DNA of 64,000 bases from Luteimonas padinae. GTDB lineage: Bacteria; Pseudomonadota; Gammaproteobacteria; Xanthomonadales; Xanthomonadaceae. Position numbers and translations under genes: made by a program. The DNA lies in the NCBI RefSeq assembly GCF_014652935.1, contig NZ_BMZT01000006.1:1-64000 (forward strand), given 5' to 3'. The notes beneath the pieces are model-generated. The model saw only the letters and a program-made list of their open reading frames with translations, did no database searches and was not told where the DNA came from. Below, piece by piece: positions 11,563-23,455 of the stretch (the first letter of the stretch is position 1; each line of letters starts with the position of its first letter).

Positions 11563-12329
<767 letters not shown>

Positions 12330-12330
<1 letters not shown>

Positions 12331-13601
12331 TGGCGACCCTGCTCGATTCGCTGGCCGCGGGCTTCAGCGGCGGGGGCGCGCGCCGCGCCGCGATGGAGGC
12401 CGCGCTGCGCGACGGCCTGCCGCATGCGCGCAGCGAGGCCTGGAAGTACACCTCGCTGCGCCAGCTCGAGCGCCGCGGCTTCTCGCCGGTACCTCTAGCC
12501 CACGCCGGCGTCGACCCGGCGCTGCTCGCCGGCATCCCGGCGCCGCGGCTGGTGTTCGTCAACGGTCGCCATGATGCGGCGCTGTCCGATCTGTCCGGCT
12601 TGCCCGAGGGCGCGCGCCTGCTGACCATGGCCCAGGCGCTTGCCGATCCCGACCCGCGCGAAAGCAACGTGCTCGCACGCAGCTATGAGCGCGCGGACGA
12701 AGTCTTCGCGCGCCTCAACGCCGCACTCGCCGACGACGGCGCGGTGCTGCGCATCGCCGAAGGCGTGGCGGTGGAGGCGCCGGTGCACCTGGTCTTCATC
12801 GGCCTGCCCGCAGAAGGCGACCTCGCCTGGCATTCGCGCCACCTGGTCGAACTGCGCCGCGGCGCCTCGGCCACGGTGATCGAGCACCACGTCGCCGGCG
12901 GCGAGCATGCCCACCTCGGCAACACCGTCGCCCACGTGCACCTGGCCGCGAACGCCACGCTGCGCCACGCCCGCGTGCAGGACGAGTCGGACCGCGCGAC
13001 GCTGTTCACCCACACCGACGCCGTGCTCGCACGCGAGTCCAGCTACCGCCGCCTCGACCTCGAGCTGGGCGGCGCGCTGTCGCGCCACGAGCTCAACGTG
13101 CGCCTGGAAGGCGAGCGCGCCGAGCTGGTCGCCAACGGCGTGCTGCTGGCCTCGGGCCGGCGCCACCTCGACACCCGCCTGGGCATCGTCCACATCGCCC
13201 GCGACACCCGCTGCGAACTGGGCTGGCGCGGCATGGCCGCCGGCCGCGGCCGCGCGGTCTTTCACGGCGGCATCGAGATCCGCGAGGGCGCCGACGGCAC
13301 CGACGCCAGGCTGTCGAACAAGAACCTGCTGCTGTCCGACACCGCCGAGATCGACACCCAGCCGGTGCTGGTGATCCACGCCGACGAAGTCACTGCCGCA
13401 CACGGCGCCACCGTCGGCCAGCTCGACGACAACGCGATGTTCTACCTGCGTTCGCGCGGCCTGCCGGAAGACGAGGCGCGGGCGCTGCTGACCGCGGCCT
13501 TCGTGCGCGAGCCGCTGGTGTCGGTGGTCGGGACGCCGGCGATGCGGGAGATGCTGGAGGAATGGCTGGACCGGGCGATTGCCGGGCAGGTGCTGGCGTG
13601 A
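12330..13601 (+). CDS. sufD: SufD, partner subunit of the Fe-S scaffold complex
   Basis: A 423-residue SufD protein that pairs with SufB and SufC and helps iron entry to the scaffold. It opens MATLLDSLAAGFSGGG, has the EAWKYTSLRQLE motif near residue 40, a central parallel beta-helix and the C-terminal SufB/SufD signature HGATVGQLDDNAMFYLRSRGL. His in the VTAAHGATVG segment corresponds to a functional ligand in SufD. ATG overlaps the sufC stop, and its own stop overlaps the GTG of sufS, so translation is coupled along sufCDS. Confidence 0.96.
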
Positions 13602-14893
13602 GCGAGGCCGGCAAGCTTCGCCCCCGTCCGCCCTCCGGGCACCTTCCGCCGCAGGGGGAAGAGGGAGCGGGCTCCGGGATCGATTGGGCCAGGGTGCGCG
13701 GGGACTTCCCGCTGCTGGCGCGCGAGGTCCACGGCAAGCCGCTGGTCTACCTCGATTCCGCCAACACCGGGCAGAAGCCCGCGGCGGTGATCGAGGCGGT
13801 CGACGGCTTCTACCGCCGCCACAACGCCAACGTCAGCCGCGCCGTGCACCAGCTCGGCAGCGAGGCCACCGAGGCCTACGAGGGCGCGCGGGCCAAGCTG
13901 GCGCGCTTCATCAACGTGCGCGCCGACGAGCTGGTGCTGACCAGCGGCACCACCTTCGCGATCAACCTGGTGGCCTATTCCTGGGCGCTGCCGCGGCTCA
14001 AGGCCGGCGACGTGATCCTGCTCACGCGCATGGAGCACCACGCCAACATCGTGCCCTGGCAACTGGTGGCGCAGCGCACCGGCGCGCGCATCGAGGTGGT
14101 CGACCTGTTGCCCGACGGCCGCCTCGACCTCGACATGCTGCGCGCGAAGATGACCGGCGAGGTGAAGCTGCTGGCCGTGACCCATGTCAGCAACGTGCTC
14201 GGCACCGTCAACCCGGTGGCCGACATCTGCCGCGAGGCGCGCAGGCGCGGGATCGTCACCGTGGTCGACGGCTCGCAGGCGCTGCCGCACCGCCCGGTGG
14301 ACGTCGCCGCCATCGGCTGCGATTTCTATGCGCTCACCGGCCACAAGATGTGCGCGCCCACCGGCACCGGCGCGCTGTGGGCGCGGCGCGAGCACCTCGA
14401 GGCCATGCCGCCCTTCATCGGCGGCGGCGAGATGATCAAGGAGGTGCGGCTGGACGGCGGCACCGTGTTCAACGACCCGCCGCGCAAGTTCGAGGCCGGC
14501 ACGCCCAACATCGCCGGCTTCGTCGGCATCGGCGCGGCGGTGGACTACCTGTGCGCGCTCGGCATGGAGAACATCGAGGCGCGCGAGCGCGAGCTGCTGG
14601 CGCATCTGGACGAGGAGTTCGGAAAGGTCGAAGGCTTGCGCGTCTTCGGCACCGCGCCCGGCAAGGCCGCCGTGGTGTCGTTCGCGATCGACGGCGTGCA
14701 TTCGCACGACCTCGCCACCCTGCTCGACCTGGAGGGCGTGGCGGTACGCTCCGGCCAGCACTGCGCGCATCCGCTGCTGGAATGGCTGGGCGTCACCGCC
14801 ACCTGCCGCGCGTCGCTGGCCTTCTACAACACCCACGCCGAGATCGAGGCCTTCATCGCCGCGCTGCGCAAGGTGCGTGGGCTTCTGGCGTAG
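13598..14893 (+). CDS. sufS: SufS cysteine desulfurase
   Basis: A PLP enzyme that takes sulfur from cysteine for Fe-S assembly, 431 residues from the GTG that overlaps the sufD stop (GTGA). PLP Lys250 lies in LTGHKMCAPTG and the persulfide Cys389 in SGQHCAHPLL. The typical start of the fold (IDWARVRGDFPLL) is only reached at residue 28. The preceding segment, LRPRPPSGHLPPQGEEGAG, is Pro/Gly rich and unlike SufS; its DNA resembles an intergenic palindromic repeat. No closer in-frame ATG exists between 13598 and the fold. No sufE or sufU gene is present nearby. Confidence 0.95.
   Translation: MSEAGKLRPRPPSGHLPPQGEEGAGSGIDWARVRGDFPLLAREVHGKPLVYLDSANTGQKPAAVIEAVDGFYRRHNANVSRAVHQLGSEATEAYEGARAKLARFINVRADELVLTSGTTFAINLVAYSWALPRLKAGDVILLTRMEHHANIVPWQLVAQRTGARIEVVDLLPDGRLDLDMLRAKMTGEVKLLAVTHVSNVLGTVNPVADICREARRRGIVTVVDGSQALPHRPVDVAAIGCDFYALTGHKMCAPTGTGALWARREHLEAMPPFIGGGEMIKEVRLDGGTVFNDPPRKFEAGTPNIAGFVGIGAAVDYLCALGMENIEARERELLAHLDEEFGKVEGLRVFGTAPGKAAVVSFAIDGVHSHDLATLLDLEGVAVRSGQHCAHPLLEWLGVTATCRASLAFYNTHAEIEAFIAALRKVRGLLA
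13615..13665 (+). repeat. Palindrome-like insertion inside the 5' end of sufS
   Basis: GC-rich DNA with the pattern CCCTCCGGGCACCTTCCGCC and a mirrored CTTCC/GGAAG pair encodes the non-conserved Pro/Gly stretch at SufS residues 6-25. It resembles, from memory, Xanthomonad extragenic repeats of the CCCTCCGGGxACCTTCTCCC type. No second copy is in the window. Confidence 0.35.
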
Positions 14894-14921
14894 GGCCGCC
14901 GGCCGGCGGCACAATCGCGCG

Positions 14922-15446
14922 ATGACCGACCTGCACTTCCGCCCCGCCACCGACGCCGACATCGACGCGATCATTCTGCTGGTGACCCGCGCCTACCGCG
15001 GCGACGCCAGCCGTGCCGGCTGGACCACCGAAGCCGACCTGCTCGACGGCGAGCGCATCGACGCCGACGTATTGCGCGCGGACATCGGCCGCCCCGGCAG
15101 CCGCGTGGTGCTGGGCCTGCGCGACGGCGCGCTGCTGGCCTGCGCCCACGCCGCCGACCTCGGCGGGCGCGCCTACTTCGGCATGTTCGCGGTCGAACCG
15201 ACCTGCCAGGGCGGCGGTATCGGCCGGGCCACGCTGGCCGAGTGCGAGCGCATCGCCCGCGACGAGTGGCGCCTGCCGAAGATGCAGATGACGGTGATCG
15301 ACCTGCGCGACGAGCTGATCGCCTGGTACCAGCGCCTCGGCTACCGGCGCACCGGCGTCCACCACCCGTTTCCCTATGGCGACGCCCGCTTCGGCATTCC
15401 GAAGCGCGACGACCTGCGCTTCGAGGTCCTGGAGAAGATGCTGTGA
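14922..15446 (+). CDS. GNAT-family N-acetyltransferase
   Basis: A 174-residue acetyl-CoA-dependent transferase. The fold is recognisable from FRPATDADIDAIILLV at the N-terminus, the FGMFAVEP strand, the acetyl-CoA loop CQGGGIGRATLAE (residues 95-106), and YQRLGYRRTGVHHP at the end of the fold. The acceptor substrate is unknown. The gene follows sufS by 28 bases and its stop overlaps the GTG of the Rieske gene, so it travels as part of the suf transcript, a layout common in Xanthomonads. Confidence 0.88.
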   Translation: MTDLHFRPATDADIDAIILLVTRAYRGDASRAGWTTEADLLDGERIDADVLRADIGRPGSRVVLGLRDGALLACAHAADLGGRAYFGMFAVEPTCQGGGIGRATLAECERIARDEWRLPKMQMTVIDLRDELIAWYQRLGYRRTGVHHPFPYGDARFGIPKRDDLRFEVLEKML

Positions 15447-15775
15447 GCGAGACCTGGACCTTCGTCTGCACCAGCGCCGAGCTGCTGCCGGGCGAGATGC
15501 AGACGGCCTTCGACGAGGTCACCGGCGCCCCGATCCTGGTGCTCAACCTGGACGGCGAGCTGTACGCGCTGGAGGACGTCTGCAGCCACGAGGACTTCGA
15601 GCTCTCCGCCGGTGCCTTCGACCCGGCCGAAGGCACCATCGAATGCGTGCTGCACGGGGCGAAGTTCGACGTCCGCGACGGCCGCGCGCTCTGCGCCCCG
15701 GCCTACGAGCCTGTGGCCAAGTTCCCGGTGAAGCGCGAACACGACGGCATCTGGACCCGCGACGACCGGGACTGA
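15443..15775 (+). CDS. Rieske 2Fe-2S ferredoxin
   Basis: A 110-residue Rieske-type ferredoxin, similar to the small electron carriers of non-haem iron dioxygenases. The two cluster motifs are Cys47-Ser-His49 in EDVCSHEDFEL and Cys68-x-x-His71 in ECVLHGAKFDV. GTG 15443 overlaps the GNAT stop (GTGA). In the suf context it may be an Fe-S acceptor or an electron donor for cluster assembly; no oxygenase component is nearby. It is the last gene of the suf transcript. Confidence 0.92.
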   Translation: MSETWTFVCTSAELLPGEMQTAFDEVTGAPILVLNLDGELYALEDVCSHEDFELSAGAFDPAEGTIECVLHGAKFDVRDGRALCAPAYEPVAKFPVKREHDGIWTRDDRD

Positions 15776-15860: not shown

Positions 15861-15889
15861 TTGCACATGCTAATGGTTCTCATTAAGAT
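15861..15889 (+). promoter_or_regulatory. Promoter of the TonB receptor gene
   Basis: TTGCAC (15861-15866) and TAAGAT (15884-15889) are 17 bases apart, a well-spaced sigma-70 promoter. The Fur-box-like palindrome fills the spacer and touches the -10. Confidence 0.6.
15868..15886 (+). promoter_or_regulatory. Putative Fur box upstream of the TonB receptor
   Basis: TGCTAATGGTTCTCATTAA has the arms TAATG and CATTA around a five-base centre and, on the other strand, reads TTAATGAGAACCATTAGCA, close to the Fur consensus of AATGA-type arms. Its position over the promoter spacer fits iron-dependent repression. Confidence 0.7.
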
Positions 15890-16002
15890 GCAGCCCATTC
15901 ATGGAGCCGCCCGGCCGCCTGCAGGCCCGGCGCCCCTCCACGCGTCCAGCAGCCGCCAGTGACGCGGGCCCGTCAAAACCCCGCTCCGGAGCACTCCGTC
16001 CC

Positions 16003-18387
16003 ATGTCCATCCACGCCGCCCGCCTCCCCGCGCGACGTGCGCCCGTGCGCACCCTCCTGTCCGCCTCGATCGCCCTGCTGCTGCCGCTGTCGCACGCCGT
16101 GGCGCAGGAGGCCATGCCCGACGGTGGCGCCGATGCCACCGACTTCGACACCATCGTGGTGACCGCCGCCGGCTTCGAGCAGAAGATCACCGACGCGCCG
16201 GCCAGCATCAGCGTGATCACGCGCGATGAGCTGGAAAAGCGCCCCTACGTCACCCTGATCGACGCCGTGCGCGACCTCGAGGGCGTGGACGTGGGCGAGA
16301 CCTCGGACAAGACCGGGCAGAAGACGATCAGCATGCGCGGCATGGGCTCGGACTACACCCTGATCCTCATCGACGGCCGCCGCCAGAACAACCACGGCGA
16401 CATCTACCCGAACAACTTCGGCGGCAACCAGTTCAACCATATCCCGCCGCTGGACATGATCGAGCGCATCGAAGTGATCCGCGGGCCCGCATCGACCCTG
16501 TACGGCGCCGACGCCCTGGGCGGCGTGATCAACATCATCACCCGCAAGGTCGGCCAGCGCTGGTACGGCTCGGCCACGGTGTCGCGCAATTTCCAGGAGG
16601 ACGACCAGTTCGGCACCGACAGCACCATCGACTTCGCCATCAGCGGCCCGCTGGTGAAGGACACGCTGGGCCTTGGCGTGCGCGGCTCCTGGTACGAGCG
16701 CGACGCATCCACGCCCGAATACGAGCTCATCACCGCGCCCGACGGCACGGAGCATGAGCGCTCGCTGGGCTTCGGCGGCGGCGGCAAGACCGTGGACAAC
16801 ACCAACAAGACCGCCGGCGTGACCCTGAGCTGGACGCCGGGCGAGTTCCAGAGCGTGGTGTTCGACTACGACGTCTCGCGGCAGGACTACGACAACACGC
16901 CGTACATCAACAACCTCGGCACCGAGACCTATCCGCTGGGCACCGTCGACGGCATCGAGGGCCTGTGGCGTTCGGCGCCGCGCGTGGGCTACGCCGCCGA
17001 CCAGGAGTTCACCCGCGACCAGTGGGCGCTGACCTGGAACGGGCAGTGGGACTGGGGCAACAGCTTCGTCTCGCTGGCCCGCATCCAGACCGGGAACAAC
17101 GGCCGCACCCTGCCCTTCACCGTGGCCGAGCGCCTGCAGCACCTGGACATGTACTGCGACAACGCCGCGGTGTGCGATACCGGCCCCTATGCCGGGCTGA
17201 CCCGCGACGAGCGCCGCCAGCTGGTCGAGGACACCTTCCTGCCGCGGCCCAAGCGCACCATGGAAAGCAGCCAGTACACCCTGGACGCCAAGGTCGACGT
17301 CGCCGTGGGCGAGCAGCACCACCTCATCGTCGGCGGCCAGCTGATCGACGGTGAGCTCGAGGACGGCGTGTTCGGCATGGAAGGCGGCGGTGACGGCGGC
17401 GGCACCGTGCAGGACCACGAGATGTGGTCGCTGTTCGCCGAGGACAACTGGAGCCCGACCGAGGCCCTGACCATCACCCTGGGCCTGCGCCACGACGACC
17501 ACAACGTCTTCGGCAGCCACCTCAGCCCGCGCGCGTACGCGGTCTGGGACCTGAGCCCGGGCTGGACCCTGAAGGGCGGCGTCAGCACCGGCTACAAGAC
17601 CCCCAAGACCACCGACCTGTACGACGGCATCACGGGCTTCGGCGGACAGGGCACCTCGCCCTTCGTCGGCAACCCGGACCTCGAGCCGGAAACCAGCGTC
17701 AACAGCGAGATCGCGCTGTACTGGACCTCGCCCGACAGCCTCCACAGTTTCAACGCCACCATTTTCCGCAACGACTTCGAGGACAAGATCGCCCGCGGCG
17801 AAGGCAACCTGAGCTGCGAGCAGACCGGAGGCGTGCGGCCCTGTGCCAACCTCGGCGACTTCGGCATGCTCGGCTACACCACCTACGCGCAGAACATCAA
17901 CATCGACGAAGTCCGCATCCAGGGCGCCGAGCTGGCCGGGCGCTGGGGCATCACCGAGACCTGGTCGCTGCGCGCCAACTACACCTACACCGACAGCGAG
18001 CAGCTCAGCGGCGCCGACCAGGGCCTGCCGCTGACCGACACCGCCAGGCACATGGCCAATGCCAGCCTGGCCTGGCAGGCCACCGACCGCTTCAGCATGC
18101 AGCTGGTCTCCGAAACCCGCTCCAAGCGCTACCGCGACGTGGTCGATGGCGTCCGCCGCGACTACGAGGACTACACCGTGCTCCACCTGGCCGCGCAGTA
18201 CCGCTTCAATGACCACGTCAGCGTCAATGCCCGGATCAACAACCTGCTCGACGAGGACTTCACCTCGTTCCAGACCCTGTGGACGCAGGACCCGAACACC
18301 GGCGAGTGGGCGCCGACCTATCTCGACGACTACAACAACAAGGACAAGGCGCGGAACCTCTGGCTCAGCCTGAACGTGCGGTTCTGA
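16003..18387 (+). CDS. TonB-dependent outer-membrane receptor, probably for a ferric chelate
   Basis: A 794-residue receptor importing a ligand through the outer membrane using TonB energy. A signal peptide (about 1-34, ending AVAQ) is followed by a TonB-box-like DTIVVTA, a plug domain (APASISVITRDEL, RGMGSDYTLILIDGRR, IRGPASTLYGADALGGVINIITR), and a beta-barrel ending in LSLNVRF with the C-terminal Phe. Plug motifs are of the CirA/FepA/IroN siderophore-receptor type. The start at 16003 is chosen for the signal peptide and GGAG 11 bases upstream. The Fur-box-like site and downstream PepSY/ApbE operon support iron uptake; the ligand is unknown. Confidence 0.93.
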   Translation: MSIHAARLPARRAPVRTLLSASIALLLPLSHAVAQEAMPDGGADATDFDTIVVTAAGFEQKITDAPASISVITRDELEKRPYVTLIDAVRDLEGVDVGETSDKTGQKTISMRGMGSDYTLILIDGRRQNNHGDIYPNNFGGNQFNHIPPLDMIERIEVIRGPASTLYGADALGGVINIITRKVGQRWYGSATVSRNFQEDDQFGTDSTIDFAISGPLVKDTLGLGVRGSWYERDASTPEYELITAPDGTEHERSLGFGGGGKTVDNTNKTAGVTLSWTPGEFQSVVFDYDVSRQDYDNTPYINNLGTETYPLGTVDGIEGLWRSAPRVGYAADQEFTRDQWALTWNGQWDWGNSFVSLARIQTGNNGRTLPFTVAERLQHLDMYCDNAAVCDTGPYAGLTRDERRQLVEDTFLPRPKRTMESSQYTLDAKVDVAVGEQHHLIVGGQLIDGELEDGVFGMEGGGDGGGTVQDHEMWSLFAEDNWSPTEALTITLGLRHDDHNVFGSHLSPRAYAVWDLSPGWTLKGGVSTGYKTPKTTDLYDGITGFGGQGTSPFVGNPDLEPETSVNSEIALYWTSPDSLHSFNATIFRNDFEDKIARGEGNLSCEQTGGVRPCANLGDFGMLGYTTYAQNINIDEVRIQGAELAGRWGITETWSLRANYTYTDSEQLSGADQGLPLTDTARHMANASLAWQATDRFSMQLVSETRSKRYRDVVDGVRRDYEDYTVLHLAAQYRFNDHVSVNARINNLLDEDFTSFQTLWTQDPNTGEWAPTYLDDYNNKDKARNLWLSLNVRF

Positions 18388-18411
18388 GCGCAGCCTTCAG
18401 GCCGTCCCGTT

Positions 18412-18447
18412 GCCGGCACCCCGGTGACGGGGCGCAGGCCTGCCGGC
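18412..18447 (+). other. Two-tier hairpin after the TonB receptor gene
   Basis: GCCGGCA/TGCCGGC form an outer stem and CCCCG-GTGA-CGGGG an inner one. There is no T-run, so it may attenuate or protect mRNA rather than terminate fully. It stands directly before the next Fur box. Confidence 0.4.
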
Positions 18448-18455
18448 TCAGTCAT

Positions 18456-18472
18456 ATGAGAACGCTTCTCAT
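18456..18472 (+). promoter_or_regulatory. Perfect Fur-box-like palindrome before the PepSY operon
   Basis: ATGAGAA-CGC-TTCTCAT is an exact 7-3-7 inverted repeat of the AATGAGAA type seen in Fur sites. It overlaps the expected -35 of a promoter whose -10 is TATACT at 18480-18485. Confidence 0.72.
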
Positions 18473-18479
18473 CAGCAGC

Positions 18480-18485
18480 TATACT
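18480..18485 (+). promoter_or_regulatory. -10 element of the PepSY operon promoter
   Basis: TATACT lies 26 bases before the GTG start of the PepSY gene. With a 17-base spacer the -35 region falls inside the Fur-box-like palindrome. Confidence 0.55.
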
Positions 18486-18511
18486 TCCGCCCCCCCAGTT
18501 CCGGTATCGAC

Positions 18512-19156
18512 GTGACAGCATCGTCCCCGACCACCGACACCGCGGCGGCCCGCCAGCGCCGCGGCTTCTGGCTGCGCACCCTGCACCAGTGGCACTGGAT
18601 CAGCTCGGCGGTGTGCCTGGTCGGCATGCTGCTGTTCGCGATCACCGGGATCACGCTCAACCACGCCGCGAAGATCGAGGGCAGCCCGGAGGTCGACAAC
18701 CGCCAGCTCGAGCTGCCCGCGGAGCTCCTCCCGCAGCTCGACGCCCACGCCGAAGGCAACGCGCCGCTGCCGCGCGAACTCGAGCGCTGGCTGCGCGACG
18801 AACTGGGCGCCTCCACCGGTGGCCGCGAGGCCGAGTGGTCGGAGGACGAGGTCTACCTGTCGATGCCCGGCCCCGGCCGCGACGCCTGGCTGGCGATCGA
18901 CAAGGCCGGCGGCACGGTCGAGTACGAACGCACCGACCGCGGCTGGGTCTCCTACCTCAACGACCTGCACAAGGGCCGCAATTCCGGGCCGGCCTGGGGC
19001 TGGTTCATCGACGTCTTCGCCATCGCCTGCATCGTGTTCACGCTGACCGGGCTGTTCCTGCTGCAGATGCACGCCCGGCAGCGGCCCGGCACCTGGCCCT
19101 GGGTGGGCCTGGGCCTGGTGGTCCCCGTGCTGCTGGCGCTGCTGTTCATCCATTGA
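18512..19156 (+). CDS. PepSY-associated transmembrane protein, candidate haem or flavin reductase subunit
   Basis: A 214-residue inner-membrane protein of the PepSY-TM type, a group implicated in ferric-siderophore reduction. Membrane helices are at about 29-50, 163-187 and 196-213. Histidines His25, His28, His51, His153 and His187 lie at helix ends (LHQWHW, TLNHA, DLHKG, LLQMHA) and could ligate haem. The loop of about 110 residues between helices 1 and 2 would be the PepSY-like periplasmic domain. It starts with GTG at 18512, behind the second Fur-box-like site, and is the first gene of a five-gene operon. The protein is short compared with four-helix PepSY reductases. Confidence 0.85.
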
Positions 19157-19181
19157 CCCACTTCAACCCAGGAACCCGCAT

Positions 19182-19697
19182 ATGCGCATTCCCCTGACCA
19201 TCGTCATCGGCGGCCTGCTGGCCACGCCGGCCTATGCCGCGGAGCTGACCGTCGAGGTCGAGGTGCCGTCGATGTCCGTCGCCGAGTACCACCGGCCCTA
19301 CGTCGCGGTCTATGTCGAAGGCGCCGACGGCAAGGCCGCGGCCGACCTGTCGGTCTGGTACATGATGAAGGACACCGCCGAAGGCCACGGCACCAAGTGG
19401 CTGCCCGACCTGCGCCAGTGGTGGCGCAAGTCGGGGCGCGCGCAGCAGATGCCGGTGGACGGCGTCAGCGGCCCGACCCGGCCCGCCGGACGCCATGCGC
19501 TGAAGTTCAACGCCCGCGACCCGCGGCTGTCCGGCCTCGCGCCCGGGCGCTACAGCGTCGTGGTGGAAGCCGTGCGCGAAGTCGGCGGCCGCGAGCTGCT
19601 GAAGATCCCCTTCGACTGGCCGGCAACCGCCGCGCAGTCGGGCAAGGCCCAGGGCAAGACCGAGCTCGGCGCGGTGAGCCTCGCCATCCGGCCCTGA
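19182..19697 (+). CDS. Secreted DUF2271 protein with a flavin-attachment-like motif
   Basis: A 171-residue exported protein of family DUF2271. Signal peptide is residues 1-20 (MRIPLTIVIGGLLATPAYAA). The motif Asp93-Gly-Val-Ser-Gly-Pro-Thr99 matches the pattern D-x-x-S/T-G-x-S/T that ApbE enzymes use to attach FMN through the last Thr or Ser, with Pro instead of the usual Ala. An ApbE gene lies two genes downstream. I therefore infer a periplasmic one-flavin electron carrier with FMN on Thr99. Conserved aromatics (SVWYMMKD, WLPDLRQWWRK) precede the motif. It starts 25 bases after the PepSY gene. Confidence 0.85.
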   Translation: MRIPLTIVIGGLLATPAYAAELTVEVEVPSMSVAEYHRPYVAVYVEGADGKAAADLSVWYMMKDTAEGHGTKWLPDLRQWWRKSGRAQQMPVDGVSGPTRPAGRHALKFNARDPRLSGLAPGRYSVVVEAVREVGGRELLKIPFDWPATAAQSGKAQGKTELGAVSLAIRP

Positions 19698-19764
19698 CGC
19701 CCGCCCGCACGCCGCGCCGCACGCACGCCGCGACGGCGACTCCACCGCATTTCCTTCCGGAGAC

Positions 19765-20637
19765 ATGATGATGAAGAAGACCCTCGCCCTCGCGCTCGCC
19801 CTGGCCACCGCACTGCCCATGGCCGCCTCCGCGCACAAGCAGTGGATCATCCCCTCGCAGGCCGTGGTCGCCGGTGGCGACGTCTGGGTGACCTTCGACG
19901 CCGCGGTGTCCAACCAGCTGTTCTTCCCCGACCACGTGCCGATGCGCCTGGACGGCATCACCGTCACCGCCCCCGACGGCAGCCGCGCGGAACTGGCCAA
20001 CGGCGCCACCGGCAAGTACCGCAGCACCTTCGACGTGCAGCTCGCGCAGCAGGGCACCTACCGCATCGCCAACGCCGGCAGCGGCATGGCGGCGCGCTGG
20101 GACACTGCCGAGAGCCTGGCCGCGAAGGCGAAGGCCGAGGCCGACGGCACGCCCCCCGGCCCGGCCGCCCGCGGCGGCTTCCTGCGCAGTGCCACCGCCG
20201 AGGACCTGGCCACCAAGGTGCCGAAGGACGCGCGCAACCTTGAAGTCACCGAGACCGTCCGCCGCGTCGAGACCTTCGTCACCAACGGCGCGCCGAACGC
20301 CACCGCGCTGGCCCCGACCGGCAAGGGCATCGAGCTGGAGCCGGTGACCCATCCCAACGATCTGTTCGCCGGCGAGGAGGCGACCTTCCGCATCCTGGTC
20401 GACGGCAAGCCGGCCGCCGGCCTCGAGTTCGAGATCGTCCGCGGCGGCACCCGCTACCGCAACGCCCAGGACGACATCGCCGCGACCACCGACGCCGAAG
20501 GCCTGCTCCGCGTGACCTGGCCCGAGGCCGGCATCTACTGGCTGGAAACCGGCCTGCAGGACGACAAGGCCAGCCTGCCGCAGGCCACCGGCCGCCGCCT
20601 CGGCTACGTCGCCACCCTGGAAGTGCTGCCGCAGTAA
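19765..20637 (+). CDS. Secreted DUF4198 protein of an iron or metal uptake operon
   Basis: A 290-residue periplasmic protein of the DUF4198 family, annotated elsewhere as nickel or iron uptake substrate-specific transmembrane-region-like. Signal peptide 1-23 ends ASA, and the mature protein begins with His (AHKQWIIPSQ), the conserved family start which could bind metal. Ig-like beta domains follow, with NDLFAGEEATFRILVDGKP and WPEAGIYWLETG in the C-terminal half. Three tandem ATG codons at 19765-19773 leave the start uncertain by two residues. The stop TAATG overlaps the ApbE start, so the two are coupled. Confidence 0.85.
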   Translation: MMMKKTLALALALATALPMAASAHKQWIIPSQAVVAGGDVWVTFDAAVSNQLFFPDHVPMRLDGITVTAPDGSRAELANGATGKYRSTFDVQLAQQGTYRIANAGSGMAARWDTAESLAAKAKAEADGTPPGPAARGGFLRSATAEDLATKVPKDARNLEVTETVRRVETFVTNGAPNATALAPTGKGIELEPVTHPNDLFAGEEATFRILVDGKPAAGLEFEIVRGGTRYRNAQDDIAATTDAEGLLRVTWPEAGIYWLETGLQDDKASLPQATGRRLGYVATLEVLPQ

Positions 20638-21719
20638 TGGGCCCGCACGGCGCCGTCGATGCGCGTCCCGCCCTCGCGGTGCACGCGCTGGGCGGCGCCA
20701 CCATGGGCACGCGCTGGCACGCGTCGGTCGCGGCTGCGCCGGGCGCGGACCTGCATCCGCTGCACGACGGCGTCCAGGCCTGCCTGGACCGCGTGGTCGC
20801 GCAGATGAGCCCCTGGGAGCGCGACTCCGACATCAGCCTCTACAACCGTGCACCCGCCGGCAGCTGGCAGGCGCTGCCGCAGCAGTTCTTCGACGTGCTG
20901 CGCGAGGCGCTGGCGATCGCCGCCGCCAGCGGCGGCGCGTTCGACCCGACCGTCGGCGCCTTGGTCGAGGCCTGGGGCTTCGGCCCCGGCGGCGCGGGCG
21001 GGCGCGTGCCGGACGCGGACACGCTGGCCTCGGCGCGCGAGCGCAGCGGCTGGCAGCGGCTGGTCCTCCACCCGCCCGGCCAGCGGCTGCTGCAGCCCGG
21101 CGGCGTGTCCCTCGACCTGTCCGGCATCGCCAAGGGCCATGGCGTGGACGCGGTGGTGGACTGGCTGCAGGCCCGGGGCGTGCCCGCCGCGCTGGTCGAG
21201 GTCGGCGGCGAGCTGCGCGGCTACGGCCGCAAGCCGGACGGCAGCGCCTGGAAGGTGCTGGCCGAAGCCTGGCCGGACGCCGACGGCGACGGCGACGGCG
21301 ACACCGGCACCGGCACCGGCACCGGCACCGGCACCGGCCCCGGTCCCGGATCCGGGGACGACGGGCACCGCGACGACGCCGGGGAGGCCACCACGGCCTG
21401 CGTGATCGAGCTCGACGACGCCGCGGTCGCCACTTCGGGCGACCACTGGCACCGCTTCGAGCACGGCGGCCGCCTGTATTCGCACACGATCGACCCGCGC
21501 AGCGGCGCGCCCGTCGCCCACGCACCGGCGGCGGTCACCGTGGTGGCCGACACCGCGCAGGCCGCCGACGCCTGGGCCACCGCACTGACGGTGCTGGGGC
21601 CCGACGCGGGCCTGGCGCTGGCACAGGCGCGCGGCCTGGCTGCGCGCTGGGTGATGCGCGCGGCCGACGGCGTCCGCGTGCAGGCCACCGCCGCCTTCCA
21701 GCGGCGGCTGGCCCCGTGA
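20637..21719 (+). CDS. apbE: ApbE-family FAD:protein FMN transferase
   Basis: ApbE enzymes use FAD to attach FMN covalently to Thr/Ser of target proteins. The 360-residue protein has ATMGTRWHA (20s), SGGAFDPTVGALVEAW (98-113), DLSGIAKGHGVD (160-171), VEVGGELRGYG (188-197) and YSHTIDPRSGAPV, with the Mg-binding Asp/Thr region AADAWATAL. Two oddities are visible. First, no signal peptide or lipobox, although ApbE usually works outside the membrane. Second, residues 214-250 are a Gly-Asp, Gly-Thr and Gly-Pro repeat insert. The likely target is the DUF2271 protein of the same operon. Confidence 0.93.
   Translation: MGPHGAVDARPALAVHALGGATMGTRWHASVAAAPGADLHPLHDGVQACLDRVVAQMSPWERDSDISLYNRAPAGSWQALPQQFFDVLREALAIAAASGGAFDPTVGALVEAWGFGPGGAGGRVPDADTLASARERSGWQRLVLHPPGQRLLQPGGVSLDLSGIAKGHGVDAVVDWLQARGVPAALVEVGGELRGYGRKPDGSAWKVLAEAWPDADGDGDGDTGTGTGTGTGTGPGPGSGDDGHRDDAGEATTACVIELDDAAVATSGDHWHRFEHGGRLYSHTIDPRSGAPVAHAPAAVTVVADTAQAADAWATALTVLGPDAGLALAQARGLAARWVMRAADGVRVQATAAFQRRLAP
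21276..21386 (+). repeat. In-frame hexanucleotide repeats inside apbE
   Basis: Three GACGGC units (21282-21299) run into six CACCGG units (21302-21337) and then degenerate GGCCCC-type repeats. The unit length of six keeps the frame, so copy-number change would lengthen or shorten a Gly-Thr/Gly-Asp linker without killing the gene. Confidence 0.85.
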
Positions 21720-23407
21720 CCGGCGCGCGCACGTCCACCGCCGCACGCGCGGCGCAGGCCGGCGTGCTGCTGGCGCTGTGCGCGGCCGCGCTGGCCTTCC
21801 TGCCCCTGCACGACGAGGCCTGGTGGCCGGGCCGCCCGACCGGCGGACGCGGCATCGCCGCCGTCCTGGTCGCACTCGCCTGGCTGCTGGCCAGCGCCAC
21901 CATCCTGCTGCGCGCCCGCCGCGCCGCCCGCGCCGATGCCGCAACGTCGGCAGCCGACGCGGCCCTGCCGGCCGCCGGCGACTGGCTCGTGGTCCACGCC
22001 AGCCAGACCGGCCAGGCGGCGGAAATCGCGCAGCGCACGGCGACGTCGCTGCAGGCGGCCGGCCTCGCGGTGCGCACCTGCGGTATCGCATCGCTGGACG
22101 CTGAGACCCTGGCGGCCACGCGGCAGCTACTGTTGATCGCGAGCACCACCGGCGAGGGCGATCCGCCCGACGCCGCCGCCGGCTTCATCGGCACCTGCAT
22201 GCGCGACGACGTCCGCCTGCCCGGGCTGCGCTACGCCGTGCTGGCGCTCGGCGACCGCGGCTACCGCAACTACTGCGCCTTCGGGCACGCGCTCGACCAG
22301 TGGCTGCGCCAGGCCGGCGCGAGCCCCCTGTTCGACCTGGTCGAAGTCGACAATGGCGATCCTGCGGCGCTGCGCCACTGGCAGCACCATCTGGGCGTTG
22401 CAGCCGACGCCCCCGCCCTGCCCGACTGGACACCGGTGGCCTACCAGCCCTGGCCCCTGTCCGGGCGCCGCGAAGTCAACCCGGGCAGCGAGGGCGCGCC
22501 GGTATTCGAACTGCGAATGCTGCCGCCGGACGGATCCGCCAGCTGGCGCGCGGGCGACATCGCCGAAGTCGGACCGCAGCAGGCGCCCGCCGCGGTGGCC
22601 GCGCTGCTCGCCGAAGCGGGCCTCGACGCCGCTTCGCCGGTTCGCGTCGACGGGATCACGCACACGCTCGGCGCGCGGCTGTCGCGCTCGCAGCTCCCGG
22701 ACGCCGACGCGATCCGCGGCCTGGCCCCGCAGGCCGTGGCCGACCGGCTGCAGCCCCTGCCCTCGCGCGAGTATTCGATCGCCTCCATCCCCGGCGAAGG
22801 CAGCCTGCGCCTGCTGCTGCGGCGCATGCTGCGCCCCGACGGCACGCCCGGCGTCGGCAGCGGCTGGCTGTGCGACCACGTGCAGGCCGGCGGCGACATC
22901 GACCTGCGCATCCGCGCCAACCCCGGCTTCCACGGCCCGCCGGCCACCACGCCGATGGTGCTCGTCGGCAACGGCACCGGCATCGCCGGCCTGCGCGCGC
23001 ACCTCGCCGAGCGTCAGGCCGGCAGCCACGCGCGCAGCTGGCTGCTGTTCGGCGAGCGCCACGGCGACCGCGACTTCCACCAGCGCGATGACATCCTGCG
23101 CTGGCTCGGCGATGGCGGACTCGAGCGCCTGGACCTGGCCTTTTCCCGCGGCACCGAGGGCAGCGGCGTGCCCGCCGATGCGCTGTCTTCCGGCCGCGCG
23201 GCCGTGCACCGCGGCTACGTGCAGGATGCGCTCCGCGCCGAAGCCTCCCGCCTGCGCGACTGGGTCGACGCGGGCGCGATCATCCTGGTCTGCGGCAGCC
23301 TCCAGGGCATGGCCTCGGGCGTCGATGGCGCGCTGCGCGAAATCCTCGGCGACACATGCGTCGACGGCCTGCTGGCCGCCGGCCGCTACCGCCGCGACGT
23401 CTACTGA
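21716..23407 (+). CDS. Membrane-anchored NADPH-flavodoxin reductase-like protein (CysJ-like)
   Basis: A 563-residue diflavin reductase. Two membrane helices (about 14-34 and 44-66) anchor it, then a flavodoxin domain (ASQTGQAAEIAQ at about 95, STTGEGDPP, LALGDRGYRNYC) binds FMN. The reductase module has the FAD motif SREYSIASIPGEGSLRL, GSGWLCDHV and the NADP-binding MVLVGNGTGIAGLRAHL. It should take electrons from cytosolic NADPH and pass them to the membrane; PepSY or flavinylated DUF2271 partners are the obvious acceptors. GTG 21716 overlaps the apbE stop (GTGA). The last codons are duplicated in a 14-base tandem repeat. Confidence 0.88.
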   Translation: MTGARTSTAARAAQAGVLLALCAAALAFLPLHDEAWWPGRPTGGRGIAAVLVALAWLLASATILLRARRAARADAATSAADAALPAAGDWLVVHASQTGQAAEIAQRTATSLQAAGLAVRTCGIASLDAETLAATRQLLLIASTTGEGDPPDAAAGFIGTCMRDDVRLPGLRYAVLALGDRGYRNYCAFGHALDQWLRQAGASPLFDLVEVDNGDPAALRHWQHHLGVAADAPALPDWTPVAYQPWPLSGRREVNPGSEGAPVFELRMLPPDGSASWRAGDIAEVGPQQAPAAVAALLAEAGLDAASPVRVDGITHTLGARLSRSQLPDADAIRGLAPQAVADRLQPLPSREYSIASIPGEGSLRLLLRRMLRPDGTPGVGSGWLCDHVQAGGDIDLRIRANPGFHGPPATTPMVLVGNGTGIAGLRAHLAERQAGSHARSWLLFGERHGDRDFHQRDDILRWLGDGGLERLDLAFSRGTEGSGVPADALSSGRAAVHRGYVQDALRAEASRLRDWVDAGAIILVCGSLQGMASGVDGALREILGDTCVDGLLAAGRYRRDVY

Positions 23408-23455
23408 GCGACGTCTACTGAGCGACGTCTATTGAGCGACGTCTATTGAGCGACG
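23395..23455. repeat. Four-copy 14-bp tandem repeat at a convergent gene end
   Basis: The unit CGACGTCTACTGAG (two copies) and its variant CGACGTCTATTGAG (two copies) plus a partial copy run 23395-23455. The first copy encodes the Asp-Val-Tyr-stop of the flavoprotein and the last copies contain the Ala-Gln-stop end of the HutD gene, so both 3' ends lie in the array. Confidence 0.9.

Follow-up and report, generated by a model that had tools for sequence, protein, structure and literature searches.

Where is flavin attached to an exported protein when the transferase encoded beside it carries no recognisable export signal? The question is raised by a locus in the window, i.e. the whole stretch of 64,000 nucleotides analysed from Luteimonas padinae (contig NZ_BMZT01000006.1, positions 1 to 64,000). 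The locus contains six genes, all on the + strand: a TonB receptor at 16003-18387 and, behind it, five genes spanning 18512-23407 for a PepSY-like membrane protein, DUF2271, DUF4198, the flavin transferase ApbE and a reductase. The five probably form an operon for iron acquisition under Fur repression, of the known PepSY/DUF2271/DUF4198 type, in which flavin mononucleotide (FMN) would be attached in the cytosol and electrons would travel by heme and FMN to Fe(III). For most bacteria with the operon, we see about an even chance that a cytosolic ApbE loads FMN on the DUF2271 preprotein and that the FMN-bearing chain then crosses Sec. A preliminary description of this DNA had reported a receptor followed by five genes in the same direction, with overlaps; all six genes lie where it had placed them and match their families by profile, and the overlaps are present as TAATG at 20635-20639 (DUF4198/ApbE) and GTGA at 21716-21719 (ApbE/reductase). 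The features of the locus are the following.

15867..15883, Fur-box-like palindrome upstream of the TonB receptor, ATGCTAATGGTTCTCAT, 13/16 to the palindrome consensus
16003..18387, + strand, TonB-dependent receptor, CirA/CfrA/FepA-like (relatives of catecholate receptors), Pfam PF00593/PF07715
18456..18472, Fur-box-like palindrome upstream of pepSY, ATGAGAACGCTTCTCAT, 14/16 to the consensus
18512..19156, + strand, PepSY-like membrane protein with three helices (count read from the sequence), PF16357 PepSY_TM_like_2, 2e-88
19182..19697, + strand, DUF2271, exported, predicted FMN carrier, PF10029, 1.6e-49, with a Sec-type leader ending in AYA before AEL
19458..19478, + strand, flavinylation motif D93-G-V-S-G-P-T99 of DUF2271, by alignment
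19765..20637, + strand, DUF4198, exported, probable metal binder, mature protein from 19834, profile match 5e-58
20637..21719, + strand, ApbE, flavin adenine dinucleotide (FAD):protein FMN transferase, signal peptide or lipobox not recognisable, PF02424, 8e-76
21300..21383, + strand, low-complexity insert in ApbE, residues 222-249, in columns gapped in 147-151 of 153 leaderless ApbEs
21716..23407, + strand, CysJ-like flavodoxin/FAD reductase for nicotinamide adenine dinucleotide phosphate (NADPH), with two N-terminal helices, Flavodoxin_1, 4.5e-26, and TIGR01931, 1.2e-57, under its cut-off

The ApbE begins with MGPHGAVDARPALAVHALGGATMGT and possesses no hydrophobic leader. Our heuristic recognises neither the signal peptide nor the lipobox expected of an extracytosolic ApbE, while DUF2271 has its Sec-type leader. 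A search of the genome (35 contigs, estimated 100% complete) found this ApbE as the sole one and found no FMN_bind protein, so that DUF2271 is the only recognisable target of a known family. Within the set of leaderless ApbEs H283 (153/153), D311 (153/153) and T315 (152/153), which we take to be catalytic and metal residues, are conserved. ApbE would be the enzyme that puts FMN on DUF2271, and because it has no recognisable export signal, we infer that attachment most likely takes place in the cytosol, ahead of the Sec passage of its substrate. Such attachment is feasible for the enzyme, since signal-truncated ApbE and DUF2271 are reported to react on co-expression in E. coli (PMC8238504).

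A hydrophobicity rule was used to class 175 ApbEs. Of these, 135 come from non-redundant loci fetched with DUF2271 or DUF4198 at their centre; the other 40 belong to genomes of the family that possess DUF2271 and a single ApbE, and in all 40 DUF4198 adjoins ApbE. The 175 contain 165 distinct ApbE domains, 160 as separate proteins and 5 fused to DUF2271. With any start codon tried, 144 of the 160 separate ApbEs lack a hydrophobic stretch ahead of the GxxMGT core, and a leader is present in 5/5 of the fusions. Among sequences unique to loci L117-L187, most of which stem from the draws made in phylum and class, a leader is lacking in 40 of the 41 separate ApbEs. The median best leader score is 0.45 for ApbE, against 2.12 for DUF2271 and 2.59 for DUF4198; internal Met starts of ApbE (n=569), serving as control, have their 95th percentile at 1.31 and their 99th at 1.68. 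The rule replaces an earlier one that took hydrophobic stretches within the domain as leaders. A signal masked by a misassigned ApbE start was rejected: within the open frame, ATG, GTG and TTG codons as far as 90 codons ahead of the core were tried as starts, and none yields a leader in the leaderless set.

Within the same bacterial family, 7 loci have an ApbE adjoining an FMN_bind gene, and in 6 of them it bears a lipoprotein leader; in 13 further FMN_bind loci no ApbE is in range. Among the 168 family genomes with DUF2271, 132 possess a single ApbE and are without an FMN_bind protein; 52 of the 132 were examined, and 43 of these have a leaderless ApbE. In a tree of 125 ApbEs (quick method, root unknown) the leader label needs 3 changes versus 17.1 when shuffled, and well-supported branches force 1; the leaderless state is therefore clustered and long kept, with gain and loss indistinguishable. 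Several leaderless ApbEs outside Xanthomonadaceae (L117, L118, L132, L134, L135, L141, L151) share an N-terminal RVL(I/V)P-like motif, which is unlike a signal peptide. DUF2271 leaders are less hydrophobic than the DUF4198 leaders of the same loci (2.12 vs 2.59, n=143), and they score 2.12 in loci with a leaderless ApbE (n=108) versus 2.45 in loci with a leadered one (n=8). A weak DUF2271 leader as a sign of post-translational export was rejected, as the tree offers only 1 to 3 independent contrasts. For Brucella ovis, an ApbE domain beside a PepSY/sulfite-reductase-like cluster is given as residues 18-296 (PMC9045290), so that there is hardly space for a leader ahead of it.

Among the alternatives, the one that survives best has ApbE entering the periplasm with no classical signal, or along a route not recognised here, and flavinylating DUF2271 there as in Nqr-type systems. 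Characterised ApbEs are mostly secreted lipoproteins, the periplasmic form of Salmonella being described as not replaceable by a cytosolic form (PMC12052999), and lineages related to ours have leadered ApbEs, a circumstance that also speaks against cytosolic attachment. Set against the 144 proteins in which every start codon tried leaves the core without a hydrophobic stretch before it, this route appears unlikely.

For DUF2271 as the substrate, motif and gene content were compared among relatives. The flavinylation-like motif that the preliminary description had noticed in DUF2271 is DGVSGPT (residues 93-99), with D93, G97 and T99 invariant among 14 aligned sequences; the threonine of this motif is reported as required for FMN in the DUF2271 of A. 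ursilacus (PMC8238504). The comparison covers 150 non-redundant DUF2271 loci from genus to phylum, with sampling weighted to Xanthomonadaceae. The strict form D..[ST]G[AP][ST] is present in 126 of the 150 DUF2271 proteins, and 15 of the remaining 24 read [ST]S[AP][ST]; elsewhere in the operon it occurs in 2/135 reductases and 0/143 PepSY proteins. Tat export of a folded DUF2271 was rejected, since a simple search detects the twin-arginine pattern in 0/150.

Synteny, which had been suggested as a check, is conserved, and the lack of co-occurrence that would have spoken against the preliminary reading is not seen. The order PepSY-DUF2271-DUF4198-ApbE-reductase is kept in 105 of the 150 loci; 13 are without apbE only, 10 without the reductase only, 11 without both, and 11 are otherwise arranged or incomplete, departures for which contig ends and missed divergent matches partly account. 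A DUF4198 match is present in 13 of 37 genomes of the same genus, and the five-gene order is intact in all 12 same-genus loci read, window counted, the thirteenth genome (G006), with only a fragment at a contig end, being left out. Of 297 genomes of the family, 168 possess DUF2271, 209 ApbE and 167 both (Fisher p 2e-41, uncorrected for descent). DUF2271 above cut-off was found in 13 of 369 genomes drawn from the class and in 65 of 398 drawn from the phylum.

Three single loci deserve mention. In a relative from another family of the same order (L032) the operon is present with no apbE separating DUF4198 from the reductase. A contig filed as Bacillus subtilis (L067) holds a Stenotrophomonas-like operon and is probably mislabelled or contaminated, because its ApbE groups with a Stenotrophomonas ApbE in the tree. 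A planctomycete record (Rhodopirellula solitaria, L107) contains a DUF2271 57% identical to that of the window, by transfer or contamination.

As another alternative, the target of the leaderless ApbE might be a cytosolic protein instead of DUF2271; Klebsiella offers a precedent, in that an ApbE and its target are both described as cytosolic there (PMC12052999). The presence of ApbE in 167 of the 168 genomes with DUF2271, the near confinement of the acceptor motif to DUF2271 within the operon, the ApbE-DUF2271 fusions of 5 loci and the lack of an FMN_bind match in this genome make this alternative very improbable.

With DUF2271 as the predicted carrier, an electron route from the cytosol can be proposed. 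The two membrane helices already ascribed to the reductase are present as hydrophobic helices N-terminal of the flavodoxin domain (read from the sequence), and because they precede the flavodoxin and CysJ-like domains the enzyme should face the cytosol. The PepSY protein, described earlier as a multi-histidine membrane protein, matches PF16357, and its histidines are counted across 143 loci as follows: H28 in 143, H153 in 143, H51 in 137, H214 in 133, H187 in 124 and H25 in 116 (alignment A4 comprises 75 of the 143 sequences). The conserved histidines lie near helix ends, as read from the sequence, where two bis-His hemes would need them, and the protein is likely a heme wire; in FoxB, pairs of conserved histidines are reported to hold two hemes (PMC11334425). 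We infer that electrons of NADPH enter the membrane-tethered diflavin reductase, pass the membrane via hemes that the small PepSY protein holds by its histidines, and arrive at the FMN covalently attached to periplasmic DUF2271, which would reduce Fe(III) or ferric chelates imported by the adjoining or another TonB receptor.

The remaining exported protein, DUF4198, to which the preliminary description had given no role, is probably a periplasmic metal carrier. A histidine at the predicted mature N-terminus is present in 148/148 proteins by pattern, 147 with HxxW/F/Y and 1 without; alignment A3 comprises 96 of 147 sequences, where H1 is 96/96 by selection, H34 83/96 and H173 93/96, with position 18 a tryptophan by count. 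The fold resembles two metal-binding proteins, IsDUF4198 (PDB 9GCB) and Zcp (PDB 9MHI-9MHN). The second ligand of IsDUF4198 is His18 (PMC12537917); mature position 18 here is Trp by count, which may or may not be the structural counterpart, the comparison resting on aligned ranges. Of three histidines mutated in the Zcp structure 9mhk, the one covered by the alignment (taken as H142) aligns with Asn151. DUF4198 would bind metal by its N-terminal histidine and probably carry or buffer the released ion. This assignment gives the least understood gene of the operon a testable role.

The TonB receptor probably starts at 16003, with an alternative ATG of the open reading frame at 15901. Its best PDB match is the colicin I receptor 2hdf (2e-87), and NCBIfam matches are under their cut-offs. 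Directly upstream of the operon, a homologous receptor (40-86% identity) is present in 9 of 12 same-genus loci and a different receptor in the other 3; any same-strand TonB receptor is found there in 55 of 143 loci (2 of the 143 with too little flank). The receptor adjoins the operon in the window and is not a fixed part of it. As receptors vary among close relatives and 55/143 loci have an adjoining one, a general reductase for Fe(III) or ferric chelates is a likelier role for the five genes than a reductase bound to a single ligand.

Fur-box-like palindromes ahead of each transcription unit, another element of the preliminary description, are found at 15867-15883 and 18456-18472, the latter ending 40 bases ahead of the pepSY start and the receptor's being the weaker (13/16). 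Scores refer to the consensus ATGAGAATNATTCTCAT (16 scored positions), chosen partly after the window's own box. Within the 3.1-Mb genome the exact string TGAGAANNNTTCTCA is confined to 18457-18471, and two further places have it with one mismatch; a Fur pattern with a (wrong) four-base spacer has no matches in the genome. Among relatives, a match of at least 12/16 is present in 75 of 141 pepSY upstream regions, versus 1.1% of 705 shuffles and 1.4% of 567 upstream regions of internal genes. The operon here may be under Fur control. A Fur-regulon table adapted from RegPrecise includes a pepSY gene of Stenotrophomonas maltophilia, which may or may not correspond to the present one (PMC6240677). 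Nickel, cobalt or zinc as the operon's metal instead of iron is very improbable, with the nickel preference of IsDUF4198 (PMC12537917) and the zinc, copper and cobalt of Zcp structures (PDB entry titles) on its side and, on the other, the Fur-like boxes, the reported iron- and Fur-dependent expression of the Caulobacter operon (PMC3751524), the iron response reported for Alteromonas DUF2271/DUF4198 genes (PMC7190382) and the resemblance of the receptor to catecholate receptors.

Several points weigh against an iron operon with cytosolic flavinylation. Sec is not known to pass a chain with an FMN-threonine; a study by Bonardi et al. (2011) reportedly, to go by its title, deals with preproteins bearing sizable rigid attachments. 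Leaders are present in 16 of the 160 distinct separate ApbEs and in 9 of the 52 single-ApbE genomes examined. Four genomes with DUF2271 (G600, G615, G639, G650) have as their sole ApbE a lipoprotein beside an FMN_bind gene, so that DUF2271 is likely modified in the periplasm there. The ApbE of L193, beside an FMN_bind gene, is also leaderless. Leaders were called by a home-made hydrophobicity rule and not by SignalP, and labels were set by hand for L189 and L166 (to leader) and for L118 (leader by rule, reset to none). No ApbE match lies near 27 of the 150 DUF2271 loci, where another ApbE must serve if DUF2271 bears FMN. Furthermore, 66 of the 141 pepSY upstream regions are without a good Fur box, and the metal shown for one DUF4198 is nickel, not iron.

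Because the operon is widespread (DUF2271 in 168 of 297 family genomes), the maturation of its flavin carrier is a general question. If FMN is attached before export, flavin export to the periplasm would be unneeded in such systems, and a covalent periplasmic cofactor would follow a new order of events. With ApbE acting inside, the picture of periplasmic flavinylation for exported proteins would need an exception, and surveys discarding leaderless ApbEs would miss the enzyme in these systems.

The region directly upstream of the operon (12291-15775) contains matches to SufBD, a class-V aminotransferase (SufS-like), a GNAT acetyltransferase and a Rieske protein; HutD and M20 peptidase genes are the downstream neighbours. 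The ApbE low-complexity insert is encoded by GACGGC/ACCGGC microsatellite-like repeats at 21300-21383 and is missing in nearly all relatives. A GAGCGACGTCTAYT-like unit is directly repeated about four times, in almost identical form, across the stop codon of the reductase (about 23394-23455).

The gene set itself is not new. In Caulobacter crescentus the five genes stand in identical order as CC_3059-CC_3063 (CCNA_03155-03159), and this operon is reported as Fur-regulated, with Fur binding by electrophoretic mobility shift assay (PMC3751524); its transposon mutants are reported to lose fitness in ethylenediaminetetraacetic acid (PMC12004947). The present locus belongs to this type, with the five families in one single-strand run and the acceptor motif present, and differs by the receptor gene directly upstream. 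Likewise, the clusters described by Méheust et al. (2021) share PepSY, DUF2271, DUF4198, ApbE and an NAD(P)H module, some with a TonB receptor: of the 3220 PepSY-like flavinylation clusters given, 2833 include DUF2271, 1500 DUF4198 and 231 a TonB receptor, and in that work FMN is shown on one DUF2271 and iron reduction is proposed (PMC8238504). Extracytosolic flavin-based iron reduction, the role put forward in the preliminary description, is thus supported, being the role already published for the gene set (PMC8238504, PMC3751524, PMC12004947). What is added here is the assignment of DUF4198 as a probable N-terminal-His metal protein and the general pairing of a leaderless ApbE with an exported substrate, a pairing for which the open-licence literature searched yielded no discussion; the ApbEs filtered for in PMC8238504 are extracytosolic (secreted or lipidated), and the one here has no signal that could be recognised. 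FoxB and HiuB also have PepSY helices with paired histidines and are linked to ferric siderophore reduction (PMC11334425, PMC13001220). Unlike these, the PepSY protein of the present operon is short, with three helices, and is accompanied by a reductase and a flavin carrier that are each separate proteins.

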